A DNA stretch of 22,922 nucleotides from a virus. This document shows, piece after piece, positions 1,880 through 14,926 of the stretch (the stretch's first letter is position 1; each line of letters opens with the position of its first letter). The notes beneath the pieces were generated by a model that had not been told where the DNA came from, did not search any database, and saw only the letters and a list, made by a program, of their open reading frames with translations. A program made the translations under genes and the position numbers. The DNA lies in the IMG/VR virus record IMGVR_UViG_3300038701_000677, positions 1 to 22,922 of that record; one strand, written 5' to 3'.

Positions 1880-4255
1880 CTAGAAGTGTTCTGTGCCCTG
1901 GGGTTCCGTCTCGTCGGCCTCCAGGATCTCCTGCCACGACTGCTCTCCGAACATCTCGTCCCACGTTGCTCGGCAGTCTTCGAGCGGCGGGAACACAAAG
2001 ACCCAGGGGCGACGTCGTTCATGCTCGCGGCCCTTCGAGTCCATGTAAACCAAGGTCCTCGGCTCTTGCCTGCTTCCGACAGCGGGGCAGACCTTCTGGA
2101 GGAACTTGCCTAAGTGTATCCGACTCGCGTGGCGCGAGTCACGAGTATTTCTCATGTGGTCGAGATAGTCGTCGAGCAGCTCGTCCTTCATCGCGAACTC
2201 CTCCCAGCGGGCGGAGTTCGGCAGGATCTTGCCGTCCTGGAGCTTGCGCAGCCACCACGACTGCTCGGGGGTGATCGACGCCATCTGCTGCGCCCTCAGC
2301 TCCTCGGTCTTGGGGACCTTGCGGAGGTTGAACTTCGACAGATCGTAGGTCAGCAGGTGATGCAGGAGCGCCTCTCGGCCTCCGTCGTCCATCTGCTGGA
2401 GCATGGCCTCGAAGTACTTGTCGTTCATGCGCTGAGAGTCGCTGGTCTCCAGGATGAAGAAGCGACGATCGTCCCAGCGGGCGGGCACGACCCAGTCCTC
2501 GTTCGACGCGATGATGAGGTGGACGTAGTTCTTCGCCTCGACGGCGTCGACGCCCTTCAGCTCGACCATCATCGTCTCTTCGGTGATGAGCGCCTTCAGC
2601 GCGCTCTCGTGCTTCTTGTTCCCGGCGTAGAACGCCTCGTCAGCAAACACGACAACGGCGTCGCGGAGCTGGGAGTTGAACTTGCCGAGGATGTGCTCCG
2701 CGTTCACGAGGTGCTTGAAGTGACACCCGAAGAGGCTGCCGAAGATCTTGGAGAACGTGCCCTTGCCCGTGCCCTGCTTGCCGCGGAACACGACGGCTAC
2801 CTCCCCTGGGCGCCCTGGGTTCTGGACGGTGTTGGCCATCCAGCCGAGCAGGTATTGGTAGTACTCGTCGACGCCCTTGCACAGGACCTTCTTGCAGTGG
2901 TCCAGGAACAGACTACAGTCGCCCGGGAGGGCCTCGCAGGTGAAGCCGCGCCAGAGGTTCAGCTCGTCCACGTACTCGCCGCTCGGGTCGAAGACGATGC
3001 GTGAGTAGGTGCGCCGCATCGGGTGGGTCATCCACCACTGGCCCAGGGCCATCTTCTTGTTCTTCTCCTTGTCGATAACGACGAAGCGGTTGCCGTAGGT
3101 GCGCTGGAAGCCCTCGATGGTGAGATACTCGATCTCAGGCTCGGGCTCCATGTGCTCCTTGACGATGCGGCACTTGCCGCCCACCGACTCGACGAGGGCG
3201 TACTTCTCGTTCAGCTCGCGGAGTTCGGGCTGGAACGCATACTCCTTGGCCCGAGCGATCTGGCGGATGGCGTAGCGCTCGATCGCGTGGCTGCTGCCCT
3301 TGTCGAGCACGCTCTCGCTGATCTTGAAGTCGGGGTCGGTGATGATCGAGTAGATGGTCTCGTCGGCCACACCGGCCCGGACCAGCTCGCAGATGACGTA
3401 GAAGACCCACGCGCTGCGCGAGTTGTCCTTCTGGAGCGGCTCGTCGTCGTCCTTGCCCTGGACGATCGCGACCTTGACGCGGGGCTTGACCGTCTTCGGA
3501 AGCTCGTCGATCGACCCGAGGCGCTGGATGTTGCCCGAGATCTCCACCTTGGCGCCGCCCCCGCCGAGGTCCGACATGCCGTCCTGGACCTTCGGGGCGG
3601 GAGTGAAGTCCTTGATCGAGTGGCGATCGTCCGTCCAGCGGACGACCTCTGCCAGCACAGGCTCGCGCCCCTTGGCGCGCTTCTTGGCATTTGGCCAGTT
3701 GACACTGCCGGGCAGGCGCATGATCCTGTCGATGTTGTGGCAGGAGTCGCCGCCCATGAGGTTCTCGATCTGGAGGTTGTAGAGCTTGGCGCGCTCCGCA
3801 CGACGAATGTCGCCGTTGATGTCCAGCGGCTCTTCGAGGAACCAGAACCCCTGATAGCCACCGCCCGAGAAGATGACAAGGTCCGGGGGCGAGACGCCCT
3901 CGGGCCGGTTCATGATCCGCAGGATGCGCGTCTGCTCTCGGTCGATCGGCTTGTCGGGCCGCGGGTCGATGTCGACATGCAGCACGTCCACCTGGGCCAC
4001 GTCCTCTCGACTGGCCTTCTTGTTCACCTTCCTCGTCAGGGTGTTGACGGTGAAGTAGATGTTCCGCTCGTGCTGCTGATGCTCCTCGATCCAGACACGG
4101 ATCTCAGACTTGTTCGACTCGTCGAACGTCGCAGTCTCGATCCGCCTCCCGCCGATGCTGTCCTTGTCGTCCGAGCAGATAGCAGTCAGGACCCATGGGC
4201 CTTCCGACTTCCATCGTTCGAGGAACTCAATGCAGTCTTGCGTCTTGGGTCTCAA
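1880..4255 (-). CDS. Primase-helicase (RepB/AEP-like primase + DUF5906-type SF3 helicase)
   Basis: This 791-residue protein should prime and unwind DNA during phage replication. The N-terminal part resembles the archaeo-eukaryotic primase fold: HVDID (acidic D95, D97), SGGGYQGFWF (130-139) and IDRIMRLPGSVNWPN (175-189, D176). The C-terminal part is a D5/SF3-like helicase of DUF5906 type: Walker A GKQGTGKGT (492-500, K498), Walker B VVVFADE (534-540), a sensor-like IIASNEDW (581-588) and an arginine-finger-like RWDDRRFF (593-600). Motif II of the primase has Gln135 where His is common. The start is TTG at 4255, preceded by GAGGAA and overlapping the upstream nuclease stop by 4 nt (TTGA). No in-frame ATG lies near enough to compete. 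The domain architecture is clear; primase activity is inferred. Confidence 0.87.
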   Translation of the reverse strand: MRPKTQDCIEFLERWKSEGPWVLTAICSDDKDSIGGRRIETATFDESNKSEIRVWIEEHQQHERNIYFTVNTLTRKVNKKASREDVAQVDVLHVDIDPRPDKPIDREQTRILRIMNRPEGVSPPDLVIFSGGGYQGFWFLEEPLDINGDIRRAERAKLYNLQIENLMGGDSCHNIDRIMRLPGSVNWPNAKKRAKGREPVLAEVVRWTDDRHSIKDFTPAPKVQDGMSDLGGGGAKVEISGNIQRLGSIDELPKTVKPRVKVAIVQGKDDDEPLQKDNSRSAWVFYVICELVRAGVADETIYSIITDPDFKISESVLDKGSSHAIERYAIRQIARAKEYAFQPELRELNEKYALVESVGGKCRIVKEHMEPEPEIEYLTIEGFQRTYGNRFVVIDKEKNKKMALGQWWMTHPMRRTYSRIVFDPSGEYVDELNLWRGFTCEALPGDCSLFLDHCKKVLCKGVDEYYQYLLGWMANTVQNPGRPGEVAVVFRGKQGTGKGTFSKIFGSLFGCHFKHLVNAEHILGKFNSQLRDAVVVFADEAFYAGNKKHESALKALITEETMMVELKGVDAVEAKNYVHLIIASNEDWVVPARWDDRRFFILETSDSQRMNDKYFEAMLQQMDDGGREALLHHLLTYDLSKFNLRKVPKTEELRAQQMASITPEQSWWLRKLQDGKILPNSARWEEFAMKDELLDDYLDHMRNTRDSRHASRIHLGKFLQKVCPAVGSRQEPRTLVYMDSKGREHERRRPWVFVFPPLEDCRATWDEMFGEQSWQEILEADETEPQGTEHF

Positions 4256-4659: not shown

Positions 4660-6650
4660 ACCTTCTCCAGGTGCCCCCAGTCGGGGCCGATCTCGGTGTC
4701 TACGGCGAACGGGACGTTCGCGTTCACTGCGATCTTCATGATCTCGGCGATCTCTTTTGCCTCTGCGGGCGAACTCACGGTGTTGTCGACCTCATCGTGG
4801 ACTTGGATCTGGATGGAAAATCCAGCGTCATCCAAGTCTACCATGGCCTTCTTCATCTGGTCGCCGCTCGAACCTTGAATCAGACGATTCAGCGCCTTGT
4901 AGGCCCTGTAGTAGCCCCTGCCGCTCTTCTCGCGCGGGAAGTAGCATCGACGCCCAAGCACCGTCCGGATGAAGCCACGGCCACTCACAGCCGCCTCAGT
5001 GGCCTTGGACAGCTTGCGGACGTAGGGGACGGAGTCGTCGAACTGGCGGAGCTGGGCCGCCCCCTCCGGGCCAGCCATCTCGAACGAGCGCACGCCGTCC
5101 GAGACAAGCTCGTCGAACTGCGGGGTGCCCTCCTCGTAGACCTTCCACCGCTTCATCCTCGGGTCTCGGACAACGGTGATCGTGGGCAGCCCGACAGAGT
5201 GGCAGTACTTCGCGCCGCCCATGCCGTAGAGCTTGCCCAGGAAGATCTGCTTCGCGTCGCTGCGCTTGAGTCCGGTCAGCTCGGCCATCATCGAGTGGTT
5301 GTCGGTGTTCGGGTCCTCGCGGTAGCGCGTCGCCACCTCACGGCCGCCCGGGGCCTGGATCAGCTCGCCGAAGTGCGCGACCCACCTGGGCTCCTGCTGG
5401 CTGTAGTCATTGCAGGCCCAGATGCCGTCGCCGTCTGGGAGGTAGAGCGAGCGCCACAGCGGGCCCAGGACATCGTCGCGGGCGGGCTGCTGCTGGATGT
5501 TGAGGTCGGAGCTGGACAGGCGGCCGAAGGCGGCGCCCTTCTCGTCGCCGCTCTCGGTCGACGATCGGAGCTGGTTGAACGTCGAGTGGATGCGGGTCTC
5601 CCCGTTCTTGACGATGCCGTGCCGCCGGACGCTCTTGACGAACGTCGTTCGGATCTTGGCGTACTTGCGCGCCTCGATCAGCGCCTTGGCGGCGTCGTTG
5701 TTCTGCTCCTTCAGCCACGGGGCGGTGATGCTCGGCTGGCCGGTTGCAGTCCTGCCGACCGTGAGCCCTGCCTTCTCCAGGGCGGGGGCGAGGGCCGCGG
5801 CCTTCATCACGTCGTCGTAGGCCAGCTCCGTCCCGGTCAGGGTGCAGAACGTGGCCATGGCGCGCTTCTGGACCTTCAGGGCCTCGTCGGCGATCTCCCC
5901 GAGCTTGTCGGTGTTGACCCTGACTCCGCGTCGCCGCATCTTGACCAGGACGGGCAGCAGGCGGCACTCCAGCTCGTAGACGTCCCAGAGGGTGCGCCCC
6001 TCGCGGACGCCGGACGCTAGGTCCTCATCCTTGGCGCGGTGCAGCATGATCTCCTGCTTGGCCAGGACCTGGAGCGGCAGCGTGACGTCGCCGATCGCGT
6101 ACTCCGCGACGACGCTGGCTGGCATCTTCCACAGGTCCTTCTTCGGATGCAGTCCGTGCTTCTCCGCAAAGGCCAGCAGGTTGTGCTCCACCTTGCCCGA
6201 GAAGCCCAAGCGCTGAGCGATGGCGTTGAGGTTCATGTCGTAGAGGCGCCCGTCCGAATACATCTCGGAGCTGGTCGCCAGGAGCGGGCCAGCGATCTGC
6301 ACATCGCGGAACGTCGCACGGCGAAAGACGATGCCAGCCTCGGCCAAGTAGTCGAGGTCGTACTGGAGGTTCGCCCCGACGATCTCGCCCTTGAAGTTCT
6401 CGGCTTGGTGGCGCAGGTAGAGGAGCGCCATCTCCGGCTCGCCGTAGTTCCCGCCCCCAGCGTGAGCGATCGGCAGGTAGTGCGAGGGCCCGCCCTCGAT
6501 CGCGAACGAGACGCCGACGATCTTGCCGCCTCGCCGAGCGCCGCAGCCGAGCGCCGTCAGCTCCGGGTCCTTCGTCTCGATGTCGACTGCAACGCGGCCG
6601 TGCTCGGGCCAGACGGGCAGGTCAGATAGTGGGGGCGGGGTCCAGGTCAT
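4656..6650 (-). CDS. Family A DNA polymerase with 3'-5' exonuclease
   Basis: This is the replicative polymerase, 664 residues. The N-terminal proofreading domain keeps all three exonuclease motifs: VDIET (D23, E25), NLQYD (N94-D98) and YAIGD (Y184, D188). The polymerase domain has motif A NDYSQQEPR (D415), the O-helix R463-K467-L471-Y475 followed by GMG, and motif C VHDE (H618, D619). No 5'-nuclease domain is present, as in T7-like phage enzymes. The residue equivalent to E. coli Phe762 is Leu471, a variant common in environmental viral PolA. An upstream in-frame ATG would add 26 poorly polymerase-like residues and overlap the methyltransferase gene; the ATG at 6650 forms a 4-nt ATGA overlap with its stop and is preferred. 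It is followed by the nuclease gene with another ATGA overlap. Confidence 0.95.
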   Translation of the reverse strand: MTWTPPPLSDLPVWPEHGRVAVDIETKDPELTALGCGARRGGKIVGVSFAIEGGPSHYLPIAHAGGGNYGEPEMALLYLRHQAENFKGEIVGANLQYDLDYLAEAGIVFRRATFRDVQIAGPLLATSSEMYSDGRLYDMNLNAIAQRLGFSGKVEHNLLAFAEKHGLHPKKDLWKMPASVVAEYAIGDVTLPLQVLAKQEIMLHRAKDEDLASGVREGRTLWDVYELECRLLPVLVKMRRRGVRVNTDKLGEIADEALKVQKRAMATFCTLTGTELAYDDVMKAAALAPALEKAGLTVGRTATGQPSITAPWLKEQNNDAAKALIEARKYAKIRTTFVKSVRRHGIVKNGETRIHSTFNQLRSSTESGDEKGAAFGRLSSSDLNIQQQPARDDVLGPLWRSLYLPDGDGIWACNDYSQQEPRWVAHFGELIQAPGGREVATRYREDPNTDNHSMMAELTGLKRSDAKQIFLGKLYGMGGAKYCHSVGLPTITVVRDPRMKRWKVYEEGTPQFDELVSDGVRSFEMAGPEGAAQLRQFDDSVPYVRKLSKATEAAVSGRGFIRTVLGRRCYFPREKSGRGYYRAYKALNRLIQGSSGDQMKKAMVDLDDAGFSIQIQVHDEVDNTVSSPAEAKEIAEIMKIAVNANVPFAVDTEIGPDWGHLEKV

Positions 6651-7288
6651 TGTGCTTCGAAGATGGTGACTAGCCGAACGCGGTGGTTCGTGCTGCGAAC
6701 GAGCCCGATGGTGCCGACGGTCTTCCACTCCGCCTTGCGGTGCATCGGCCAGACCTGATCTAGCCAGACGAGGCAGGCGCCCCTCACGGCGACCTTGCGG
6801 AGTTCCCGCATGATCTTGGCGCGGTTGGGGGCGGGGCAGTCATACTTCTTGGCGTCCTCCGCCGAATAGGGCGGGTCTGCCAGGATCAGGTCGAACTTGC
6901 CCTGCCGGTCCTCCAGCGCGCAGAACTCGAAGAGGTCGCCCTGCCACGTCGGGTAGCGGCCCTGCTCCGGGCCGTGCATGTCCACCAGCTCAATCACACT
7001 GCCACTGTCCAGTGCGTTGCCGGTAAGGCCGCCCCATGCAGCCAGCTCGGCGTGATCGCGCGTCAGCCCGCCGCTGAAGGCATGGAGGATGCGACCAGCG
7101 TCGGGGAACATCGCATGGACACGCTCCAGGTAGCCGTGCGGATATGCTCCGTATAAGCGATTTGGACTCTTGTAGCAGGAGCCGATCATCCAGGTCCCCG
7201 TGACGAACCCGTTGGCGCCGCTCAGGGGAGGGCGCTTCGGATACTTGCTGTTGTAGAACGCGGCTCGCTCTTCGGTGGTCCTGGTCAT
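6647..7288 (-). CDS. DNA methyltransferase (DPPY type)
   Basis: This 213-residue protein has the class I SAM-methyltransferase signature of amino-methylating DNA enzymes: a motif I-like ILHAFSGGL (67-75), an acidic strand end IELVDMHG (99-106), QGDLFEF (116-122) and the catalytic DPPY at 138-141 inside LILADPPYSAED. The DPPY form points to N6-adenine or N4-cytosine methylation. No restriction partner is adjacent, so it is best seen as an orphan phage methyltransferase that protects the phage DNA or alters regulation. There is no obvious target-recognition insert, and the recognition site cannot be read. It is linked by 4-nt ATGA overlaps to the kinase-like gene before it and the polymerase after it. 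An RNA or protein methyltransferase is less likely but not excluded. Confidence 0.78.
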   Translation of the reverse strand: MTRTTEERAAFYNSKYPKRPPLSGANGFVTGTWMIGSCYKSPNRLYGAYPHGYLERVHAMFPDAGRILHAFSGGLTRDHAELAAWGGLTGNALDSGSVIELVDMHGPEQGRYPTWQGDLFEFCALEDRQGKFDLILADPPYSAEDAKKYDCPAPNRAKIMRELRKVAVRGACLVWLDQVWPMHRKAEWKTVGTIGLVRSTNHRVRLVTIFEAQ

Positions 7289-12120: not shown

Positions 12121-12678
12121 TCAGCGCGCCACCTTGACGCGCTTGAAATCGGATGCCTTGAAGAGGTCCATCGGGGCCTCATCACCATTCTCGCGCAGCT
12201 CCTTGAGGAGCGACGCGGCTGTTCCCCACTCGACGAAGGCTTCGACCTTGGCGTCCATGCCCATCTCGCCGAGCTGCTTCGCCAGCTTCTTCGCCTTCTC
12301 GCGGTCCTCGCGAGGCAGGGCGACGCCGACGTTGGTCTTGATGACCCCGGCGTGACCGTTCTCCTCCAGCCACTGGAGAGCCTCGGGGGACTTGACCCGG
12401 CCGACGCGGATCTTCTCCTCCAGCTTGACCTTCATGCCCTGCTGGGTCTCGAAGGACTTCATCCCCAGCTCCTCCATGAGTTCCGGGATCGTGCTCTCTT
12501 CCAGCTCCTTGACCCGGTGCTGGGCGGTCTTGAGGGCCTCCTCGCGGCTCTTGACGACGTCCTGTGCGTCGCCGAGGGCGTCGATCAGCTCAGAGAGGAG
12601 CCCGAGCTTCTCGGTGCGCTGCTCGGGGGTCAGCTCGTCGTAGTCGTCTCCGAAGTCGAAGATCTCGTCGGTGGTCAT
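12121..12678 (-). CDS. Coiled-coil protein of unknown function, 185 aa
   Basis: The protein has an acidic start (FDFGDDYDEL), a long coiled-coil-like helix at about residues 20-72, then a compact mixed region. The latter reads strand-strand-helix (KSFETQQ, KVKLEEKIRVGRV, PEALQWLEENG), a second charged helix (123-140) and a C-terminal LLKELRENGDEAPMDLF-KRVKV segment. A long helix followed by a beta-rich DNA-binding-like part recalls Gam-type host-nuclease inhibitors, but the resemblance is structural guesswork. ATG at 12678 overlaps the HNH stop by 4 nt (ATGA), with GGAG upstream; a longer frame into the HNH gene is rejected. It lies between the helicase/HNH pair and the SSB-like gene, so a recombination or replication accessory role is reasonable. 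Function is not established. Confidence 0.7.
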   Translation of the reverse strand: MTTDEIFDFGDDYDELTPEQRTEKLGLLSELIDALGDAQDVVKSREEALKTAQHRVKELEESTIPELMEELGMKSFETQQGMKVKLEEKIRVGRVKSPEALQWLEENGHAGVIKTNVGVALPREDREKAKKLAKQLGEMGMDAKVEAFVEWGTAASLLKELRENGDEAPMDLFKASDFKRVKVAR

Positions 12679-13103
12679 ACGTGTCTCCAGGTTTCTCGCC
12701 TCACGGCGCTTCTGATTGTGGATCGGCAGACGCCGAAGCGTTCCGCTAGTTCCTTGAATGATACGCCACCCTGGGCGTAGAGTTCCCGCATTTCTCGGAC
12801 TTTTTCTTCCGTCAGGTGACTCGACGGGGAGTTCTCCCCCTTCTGCCCCCTGCGGACGATCTTCTTCAGGCGGAGGTGGGCAGGGTTGCAGCACGCCGGG
12901 TTGCCGCACCGTTGATAGACCTTCTTGCCCGGGGTGGGGTGGAAGTATCCTCGCGCCACGCGGTGGGCAAGCAGGACCCTCGTCGGGGTCATGCAGAATC
13001 GGCCGTAGCCTTCCCTGGTCTTGGCGCCGGTCCACGGCCAGCAGTCGTCCTCGCCGCCGCTCATGTCGACCTTCTCCCAGAACCTCTCCTTCCAGGACTT
13101 CAT
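12675..13103 (-). CDS. HNH-family protein with C-terminal helix-turn-helix, catalytic His replaced
   Basis: This 142-residue protein has the layout of free-standing phage HNH endonucleases: an N-terminal CWPWTGAKTREGYGRF (21-36), AHRVARG (46-52), then the zinc/HNH core with C66, C71, N73 and H76 (CGNPACCNPAHL), and a helix-turn-helix at about 98-135 (FKELAERFGVCRSTIRSAV). Where relatives normally show HxC, this protein has Q64-R65-C66, so the presumed general-base His is missing and the nuclease may be inactive. ATG at 13103 is preferred: it has AAGGAG five bases upstream and an ATGA overlap with the helicase stop. A GTG two codons earlier would lie on top of the ribosome site. Such genes often move as homing elements, but this one is fitted neatly into the operon. 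Confidence 0.8.
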   Translation of the reverse strand: MKSWKERFWEKVDMSGGEDDCWPWTGAKTREGYGRFCMTPTRVLLAHRVARGYFHPTPGKKVYQRCGNPACCNPAHLRLKKIVRRGQKGENSPSSHLTEEKVREMRELYAQGGVSFKELAERFGVCRSTIRSAVRRETWRHV

Positions 13104-14545
13104 AGCCACTCCTTCAGTGTGTCGCCAGTCACCTGCGATGCGATGTCGAGCTTCTCGCGCAGCGCGGTGATGATCTTCTCGTCGAGGGTGCCCTCGGCGA
13201 CGATGTCGATGTAGGTCACGGGGAACTTTTGGCCGATCCTATGCGCGCGGTCCTCGGACTGGAGCCTCTCGGTGAGCTTGAACGAGTTGGTGTAGTAGAC
13301 CACCGTCCGAGCTGCGTGCAGGGTGAGACCCTCGCCAGCACACGCTGGGTTCGCAACGAAGACCTTCGCATCTCCCTTCTGGAAGGAGTCGCGCGCCGTC
13401 TCACGCTCGTCAGTCCCGACGGCTCCGTCATAGCGGACGTGGCTGATCCCCGCCGCGGTCAGCGCCTTGCAGATGCTGTCGATGTCATAGCGGAAGCGGG
13501 CCCAGACGATCATCTTGTGGGGGCAGTCCTCGACGATCTCCATGAGCGCGTCGAGCCGGGGGTTCTTCTTGAACTCCACGATCTCGTCCGTCCCGTCCAG
13601 TCCAGCGAAGCCCGACAGGATCTGCTGGACGCGCAGGAGCTGCGTGATCGCGAGGACCGCGGAGATCTCCCTGCCGTCCTCCGTCTCGGAGAAGAGCTGC
13701 GTCTTCAGATCCTTGATCGCTCGGGTCTGGGAGGGGTCGGGGGCGAAGTAGCGGCGCTGGTAGAGCTTCGGCGGGAGGTCGAGCACGTCCTCCTTCAGGA
13801 GCCTCGACCCGATGGAGTCGACGACCTTGTGCAGCTTGTCCAGGTCCTTGTAGTGGACCAGCTTCGGGAAGCTACGTCCGGCGCCGAGCTGCTGGTTGAC
13901 CCACTCGCCGAAGCGGGTCTTGAAGGCCCGGAAGTTCGAGCAGCCCAGGGGCTTCCAGATGTCGGGATCTAGGAAGCGGAGCTGGGTGTAGACGTCGAAC
14001 GGGGAGTTGGCCACGGGAGTCCCGGTCAGGGCGCGGCGATAGGGGGCGTACTTCCCGGCGGCGATCGCGCGCTTGGTCCGCTTGGCGGAGGGGGTCTTGA
14101 TGCGCGCCGACTCGTCCAGCACCATCATGCAGGTCCGGGTCGTGAGCAGCTCCTTCGCGCAGGCGCCTCCGCGGTCAGTCATGAAGCCCTCGTAGCTCAT
14201 GACCAGCACCGCGAGGCCGTCGTGCTCCATCATCTCCTTGGCCGACTTGGCGTGCTTCTTCGTCGAGGCGCGCTTGCTCTCCCACAGGTGGCAGCGCACG
14301 CGGAGACAGTCGGGGGCGTGGACGGGGATCTCGTCGCGGACCCAGTTGGGGGCGACCGCGGGCGGGGCGATGACCAGGAGGGCGTCGATCTTGCCATCCA
14401 TGAACAGGTGCCCTGCCGTGTCGATCACGACCTTCGTCTTGCCCAGGCCCTGCTCCAGGAACAGGCCGTAGGCAGGGAGGTCCCTCGTGTCGCGGTGGAG
14501 GTCCGCCTGATGCGGGAACGGCTTCGTCTTTGGTGTGTAGCTCAT
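13100..14545 (-). CDS. SNF2-type superfamily 2 helicase/translocase
   Basis: This 481-residue protein has the two RecA-like lobes of SNF2/Rad54-type ATPases: a Q-like PHQ (11-13), Walker A EQGLGKTK (31-38, K36), DESA (144-147) in place of DEAH, LTGTP (173-177), and the C-terminal lobe with RYDGAV (371-376), AGEGLTL (403-409) and SEDRAHRIGQ (430-439, arginine finger). These enzymes move on duplex DNA and remodel protein-DNA complexes; phage members take part in replication start and recombination. It is the first gene of the leftward replication operon, downstream of the long control region. ATG at 14545 is preceded by TGAGACCACA, a poor ribosome site that recurs before other genes here. ATGA overlaps the HNH gene. 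Family assignment is strong; the partner is unknown. Confidence 0.9.
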   Translation of the reverse strand: MSYTPKTKPFPHQADLHRDTRDLPAYGLFLEQGLGKTKVVIDTAGHLFMDGKIDALLVIAPPAVAPNWVRDEIPVHAPDCLRVRCHLWESKRASTKKHAKSAKEMMEHDGLAVLVMSYEGFMTDRGGACAKELLTTRTCMMVLDESARIKTPSAKRTKRAIAAGKYAPYRRALTGTPVANSPFDVYTQLRFLDPDIWKPLGCSNFRAFKTRFGEWVNQQLGAGRSFPKLVHYKDLDKLHKVVDSIGSRLLKEDVLDLPPKLYQRRYFAPDPSQTRAIKDLKTQLFSETEDGREISAVLAITQLLRVQQILSGFAGLDGTDEIVEFKKNPRLDALMEIVEDCPHKMIVWARFRYDIDSICKALTAAGISHVRYDGAVGTDERETARDSFQKGDAKVFVANPACAGEGLTLHAARTVVYYTNSFKLTERLQSEDRAHRIGQKFPVTYIDIVAEGTLDEKIITALREKLDIASQVTGDTLKEWL

Positions 14546-14579
14546 GTGGTCTCAGGTCCAGCACTCCAGTCTACCCAGT

Positions 14580-14601
14580 AGAACGCGGAGCTGGGCGAAA
14601 G
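14580..14601 (+). repeat. Direct-repeat words, left copy
   Basis: Two 12-base words abut here: agaacgcggagc (14580-14591) and gctgggcgaaag (14590-14601). Both recur exactly and in the same orientation at the other end of the gap, at 14831-14842 and 14886-14897. The first also forms one arm of the late hairpin. Confidence 0.7.
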
Positions 14602-14727
14602 GTTCCCAGAAAATCGAGAAACTTGGATCTCTTGTAAGTGACTACCCAACCGTCGACATCTAAGGAGACATTCAAGGCAACAGAACATACGGTGCCATCG
14701 CGAGAACCGGAACCTGAACTTGTATCT

Positions 14728-14762
14728 CTCAAACCCCCAACACATATATGTAGGGGTTAGAG
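14728..14762. repeat. Imperfect palindrome with ATATAT centre
   Basis: The arms ctcaaacccc (14728-14737) and ggggttagag (14753-14762) match at nine of ten positions. Between them lies the perfect 10-bp palindrome acatatatgt (14742-14751). Such a site could be an operator for a dimeric repressor or an easily melted segment. No binding protein for it is encoded in this window. Confidence 0.5.
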
Positions 14763-14832
14763 AAACAATGCTTTCCTGCTGGGCCACAGCGATTCAGAAA
14801 GGGGTCGTGCGGAGAAAGATATACAAGTGAAG

Positions 14833-14869
14833 AACGCGGAGCACCCGGCGTCACCGAATGCTCCGCGTT
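14833..14869 (-). terminator. Probable intrinsic terminator of the leftward late operon
   Basis: The perfect 11-bp arms aacgcggagca (14833-14843) and tgctccgcgtt (14859-14869) flank a 15-base loop that can add a further CGG/CCG pair. On the leftward transcript the stem is followed by a T-rich run (CTTCACTTGTATATCTTTC). It lies about 50 bases past the stop of the last late gene (14920), the expected place for transcription to end. The T-run is interrupted, so termination may be partial. Confidence 0.7.
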
Positions 14870-14896
14870 ACTTAGATGTCGTCTCGCTGGGCGAAA

Positions 14897-14926
14897 GATC
14901 CAAGTAGATCCAAGTAGATCTAAGTG
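14897..14926 (+). repeat. Three tandem 10-bp repeats overlapping a stop codon
   Basis: gatccaagta occurs twice in tandem (14897-14906, 14907-14916), followed by the variant gatctaagtg (14917-14926). The third unit covers the TAG stop of the coiled-coil gene. An inverted copy, acttggatct, lies at 14621-14630. Ten-bp phasing places the units on one face of the helix, which suits operators or origin iterons. Confidence 0.75.

Follow-up and report, generated by a model that had tools for sequence, protein, structure and literature searches.

The intergenic region between the structural and replication modules

The window analysed here is an IMG/VR virus record of 22,922 bases. Its recognisable genes lie on the minus strand, where the order is tail genes, a tail-tip protein gene, a gene for a 159-aa protein, an intergenic gap, an SNF2-type helicase gene and a replication module containing ribonucleotide reductase, ThyX, DNA polymerase A and a D5-like primase-helicase. 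As tail genes lie on one side and the helicase and replication module on the other, the gap at 14546-14919 is the border between the structural and replication halves of the window. The genes needed below are the following.

18374-15396, minus strand: tail-tip protein gene
15399-14920, minus strand: 159-aa protein gene, last of the tail region
14546-14919, no strand: origin-like element in non-coding DNA, flanked by the SNF2-type helicase and 159-aa protein genes (from the open reading frames); the outermost word copy reaches 14925
13100-14545, minus strand: SNF2-type helicase, first gene of the replication module (phrog_62, E 2e-122; PF00176/PF00271)
1880-4255, minus strand: D5-like primase-helicase (DUF5906/VapE-like), candidate initiator (from profile families and co-variation with the words)

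The gap has a GC content of 0.51, compared to 0.64 for the whole record. An 81-aa open reading frame in the gap (14542-14787) matched no PHROG family, no relative of the neighbouring 159-aa protein was found among phage records, and Rfam and tRNA searches gave no match.

A mirrored array of decamers surrounds the least stable DNA of the record

The first-pass annotation had described two inverted copies of an ordered set of three words in the gap, with spacers of 23 and 53 bases in one half and 14 and 42 in the other, and two 12-bp direct repeats. The positions of the six words, both spacer pairs and both repeats proved exact, base for base. The three words are not independent because ACTTGGATCT, CGACATCTAAG and ACTTGTAT are all variants of one decamer, ACTTRKATST. 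With at most one mismatch, this decamer has 10 matches in the gap, compared to 2.7 expected in the whole 22.9-kb record. Eight copies, both strands counted, surround the least stable DNA of the record in a mirrored arrangement (distances are from the helicase ATG):

14621-14630, plus strand: word copy ACTTGGATCT, at -85, opposite to the gene strand
14656-14665, minus strand: word copy CCTTAGATGT (previously read as cgacatctaag), at -120
14718-14727, plus strand: word copy ACTTGTATCT, at -182
14720-14769, no strand: candidate DNA unwinding element, with the lowest stability of any 50-bp stretch of the record; ACATATATGT forms the centre of an imperfect palindrome in it
14819-14828, minus strand: word copy ACTTGTATAT, at -283
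14833-14869, no strand: G+C-rich hairpin (AACGCGGAGC...GCTCCGCGTT), from an inverted-repeat search; no clear U run
14870-14879, plus strand: word copy ACTTAGATGT, at -334
14896-14925, minus strand: three tandem word copies ACTTAGATCT-ACTTGGATCT-ACTTGGATCT (starting at 14896, 14906 and 14916), at -380, -370 and -360

In gene orientation, the layout is +++-+ | -+- (-380, -370, -360, -334, -283 | -182, -120, -85). The mirror is not one to one, since the outer right word is the innermost of the three tandem decamers. The gap combines two features of iteron origins: several copies of one short putative binding word in non-coding DNA and, at 14720-14769, an adjacent AT-rich tract of low stability. 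When stability was computed with nearest-neighbour energies, no place in the 22.9 kb was weaker than this region at either 30 or 50 bp.

The inverted arrangement was compared with 1000 dinucleotide-preserving shuffles, the control that had been proposed for it. When exact inverted words of 8 bp or more are chained by nesting, the gap gives three words with a total of 32 bases; the shuffles reached a maximum total of 21 and none contained three nested words. This best-scoring chain takes the local hairpin at 14833-14869 as its third word; the three words first reported total 29 bases, again above every shuffle. Elsewhere in the record, 58 windows of 381 bp gave nested totals of 25 at most. Gapped alignment of the gap with its own reverse complement gave z = 3.3 (2 of 200 shuffles as high), and upon RNA folding the gap was more stable than shuffles (z = -4.9 and -5.2).

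The hairpin at 14833-14869, located after the tail operon, is a possible terminator of this operon; a canonical intrinsic terminator (a G+C hairpin then a T run) was sought in the gap and none was found; the hairpin is not followed by a T run. Its arm sequence is found again at 14582-14591, at the other end of the gap. Outside the gap, an exact copy of the word occurs once in the record, at 4801-4810 (plus strand) within the DNA polymerase gene; 17 bases further on is an inverted near copy (4828-4837, minus strand). This pair may be due to chance.

Related phages carry a similar array upstream of the helicase

Homologous helicases were used as an anchor to compare upstream regions across related viral loci. 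In 20 of 80 loci, the 600 bp upstream of the helicase hold a family of 10-bp words larger than that of any control window from the same locus; in the other 60, the upstream array does not stand out. Among the carriers examined, few copies of the word (0-4) occur elsewhere in the locus, and it is largely confined to the gap and to the second copy described below. The words differ between phages (TCTTAACTTA, TGACTTTACT, TACTTATGTG, TGACCATACT, ACATCACTTG and others) and most have an ACTT/AAGT core, which is absent from the word TGTACACCAT of G006. The layout is similar between the window and its relatives, as in contig G001 (L022), where it reads, in gene orientation, ++-+ | ---- (-349, -328, -298, -252 | -202, -177, -168, -94). 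The element is common but not universal, because L003 and L004, two relatives by the tail-tip protein, have a short gap and no array. These two were the close relatives of the window returned by the tail protein in single-protein scans, which gave one for the polymerase and none for the helicase; a search of viral contigs for the tandem decamer of the window returned none.

As to whether related phages would conserve the words, the outcome was mixed: the letters diverge, but many relatives retain the position, the core motif, the layout and the tract of weak DNA. No 50-bp stretch of the genome is less stable than one within the helicase-side element in YuA, PaMx11, Pam3, G001, G002, G007, G008, G009, G010 and the window (G009 and G010 being fragments of 31-32 kb). 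One weaker place lies outside the element in G004 and in G005, and G003 and G006 are exceptions that break the rule.

The earlier interpretation as a diverged inverted duplication of a regulatory or origin element is right for the window element and for several relatives, but not for all of them. Alignment of an element with its own reverse complement scored above nearly all shuffles (no more than 2 of 200 as high) in the window, G001, G003, G004, G008, G010, PA_LZ03 and YuA gap 1; a 260-bp stretch of the G003 element is 70% identical to its reverse complement, and the palindrome is global in several relatives. The alignment did not stand out in this way in G002 (helicase copy), G005, G009 and AIIMS-Plu-RaNi.

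The element was also searched for blindly. The tandem 9-mers adjacent to the weak tract were used to derive a pattern, TTACTTNACTTACTTNAC, and a search of all viral contigs with it returned 80 loci. In 16 of these, the array lies 170-494 bp upstream of a relative of the helicase or of terS, and the strand relation of the tandem 9-mer to the gene is identical in all 16 scored cases. Two contigs have one match at each place, helicase and terS (L177/L185 and L190/L203). The 16 matches are not all independent, as a few come from contigs already present in the helicase comparison (e.g. L141, L149, L152); the remaining matches are unexplained or due to chance.

In related phages, a second copy of the element precedes terS

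The whole genomes of YuA, PaMx11, Pam3 and five metagenomic phages each carry two copies of the element: besides the one ahead of the helicase, another lies immediately upstream of terS, the gene with which the structural half begins. Alignment of the copies gave 225 bp at 92% in Pam3, 98 bp at 88%, 39 bp at 100% and 29 bp at 97% in PaMx11, where the two copies are in opposite orientation, and an exact match of 30 bp in YuA, whose two gaps lie at 413-839 and 32840-33498. Identity by alignment was 79% in G001, 75% in G002, 99.5-100% in G003 and 75% in G008. In G006, the nearest full-length relative of the window (52% identity for the tail-tip protein and 53% for the helicase), the second copy was found by its words, which occur six times. 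A second array was sought in G004, G005 and G007 and none was found. The terS copy also holds DNA weaker than any 50-bp place elsewhere in the genome in YuA, PaMx11, Pam3, G001 and G008. As the record stops short of terS, a second copy in the window phage is a prediction; its array would consist of ACTTRGATCT words some 300-430 bp upstream of terS. In PaMx11, a long CAGCAC tandem run adjoins the element in the terS gap (L126 1-829).

A candidate replication origin

Combined, the word array, the weak DNA, their conserved place and the duplication in relatives lead us to favour, with moderate confidence, the interpretation that the gap is one copy of a cis-acting iteron-type replication origin, present in duplicate in relatives. 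The initiator would be encoded by the phage, with the D5-like primase-helicase as the most likely candidate, and would bind the repeated 9-10 bp words (iterons), which sit as a mirrored array around an easily melted tract; the bound initiator would then open this tract and load the replication machinery. The two elements of each relative, one at the start of the replication module and the other at the start of the structural module, might act as oriL and oriR do in SPP1; early theta replication could start from one of them, and the other could be used in the switch to concatemers. Of the checks proposed for an origin, GC skew gave no support, showing no inflection at the gap in the window, nor in PaMx11 or Pam3; this is a weak test in phages with all genes on one strand, and a strand-composition change is a supporting but not an obligatory sign of an origin.

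Known systems show parts of this anatomy. The Bacillus phage SPP1 has two similar origins, oriL and oriR, with repeats and an AT-rich unwinding tract; of the two, one lies within the structural half (PMC6316719). The likeness lies in words and weak DNA heading the replication and structural modules, the pair being known here from relatives. SPP1 differs in using gp38 and a DnaB-type helicase and in having oriL inside gene 38, whereas here both copies are intergenic, the arrays are often palindromic and a D5-like primase-helicase is present. SaPI Rep and SCCmec Cch2 are D5-type initiators, each a self-loading helicase acting on short intergenic iterons, and the Cch2 iteron is AAGTG (PMC7581432). 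Short intergenic words are likewise found here and most arrays have an AAGT core; with so short a core, this likeness may be due to chance. The SaPI and SCCmec origins adjoin the initiator gene, whereas the primase gene of the window is ~10 kb away; moreover, the element here is duplicated in relatives and binding to its words is putative.

The main rival to an origin is a control region serving the two main early promoters, in which a phage-encoded regulator would bind the words and so switch both operons, replication and structural, in concert. One copy lies ahead of each module, and the YuA record (GenBank NC_010116) places early promoter regions in the same two gaps, before the helicase and before terS, with measured promoters (1000 Miller units) in both. 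The annotated -35 (TTAGGT) of YuA is inside word-like sequence, its -10 is 84-85 bp from the shared 30-bp block in both gaps, and the fixed strand of the tandem 9-mer relative to the gene in the 16 scored cases would suit operators, for which the CtrA-site arrays in the gap of a YuA-related phage offer a precedent (PMC9437464). The YuA record annotates the gaps as promoters only and does not note the repeats, the duplication or the unstable tract. Such a role is nevertheless less likely than an origin, given that copy 1 of PaMx11 is inverted relative to copy 2, that the gaps hold the weakest DNA in most whole genomes, that word arrays are absent from other gene starts and that a search of the window gap for the sigma-70 -35/-10 consensus gave zero hits. 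Both functions could reside in one element. In the YuA record, 28-bp repeats at L127 22639-22666 and at four further places are also annotated as putative sigma-70 promoters that require a phage cofactor.

A recombination, packaging or partition site used twice per genome is improbable: two similar copies do stand at module borders and one adjoins terS, but copy 1 is away from the packaging genes and, in the window, none of the genes near the gap was recognised as a recombinase or partition gene. Slightly less probable still is a structured RNA or cruciform, in which the nested inverted words would give the helicase transcript a long folded leader or terminator. The fold scores of the window and of G003 (z = -8.1) and the strong hairpin at 14833-14869 point in this direction; however, negative values in most relatives say little for an RNA, since any palindromic DNA would give them. 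Tandem and non-mirrored copies occur in other phages, the fold z is weak in G002 and Pam3, and Rfam gave no match. The large nested stem suggested at first thus loses ground as an RNA, since the arrays of some relatives are not mirrored at all. Brevundimonas phage Delta, which is related to YuA, has a large gap near the terminase with a dense array of CtrA sites (PMC9437464), which resembles the present element in being a dense array of one motif in a similarly placed gap; TTAA occurs inside the words of G001, G003 and G008, but an array of host CtrA sites is next to impossible here, as TTAA-N7-TTAA has a count of zero in every element tested, which refutes canonical CtrA sites, and the window gap is without any TTAA.

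Returning to the origin, a broader and more tentative proposal is that YuA, PaMx11, Pam3 and their uncultured relatives form a widespread group that may replicate from two duplicated, often palindromic iteron origins, one heading each genome half, with words co-evolving with a D5-like primase-helicase that would recognise the AAGT core. This protein, gp26 in YuA, is present in all 12 genomes compared for it. Since a first co-variation test, with hand-assigned words, was post hoc, it was redone with word-free 6-mer spectra, and the effect shrank. Element similarity tracks primase identity better than that of five other proteins under two of three settings (12 genomes, the pairs not being independent), with rho 0.63 and partial 0.45 at the loosest setting, and the correlation fades at the strictest; this co-variation is a lead only.

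Iteron origins and paired phage origins are already known. The duplicated, often palindromic element across YuA-, PaMx11- and Pam3-like phages appears to be undescribed within the searchable literature: PMC11946847, PMC11619397, PMC5418858, PMC11236537 and PMC4482731 yielded no passage about an origin or about intergenic repeats in these phages, and no origin reported for Mesyanzhinovviridae-type phages turned up in the literature covered. The element is a possible case of an initiator-site pair diverging in letters with its layout kept, and a DNA signature for finding such phages in metagenomes. As the cultured phages YuA, PaMx11 and Pam3 each offer two precise matching candidate sites, the number of origins, the initiator and the word specificity are directly testable.

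Elsewhere on the minus strand of the window, an HNH endonuclease with a C-terminal helix-turn-helix-like match (12675-13109) lies between the helicase gene and a phrog_2378 (Pam3 gp33-like) gene, and looks like a homing endonuclease. A DNA methyltransferase-like protein (phrog_3816) is encoded at 6647-7288; among the compared genomes, only G006 has one (64% identity).
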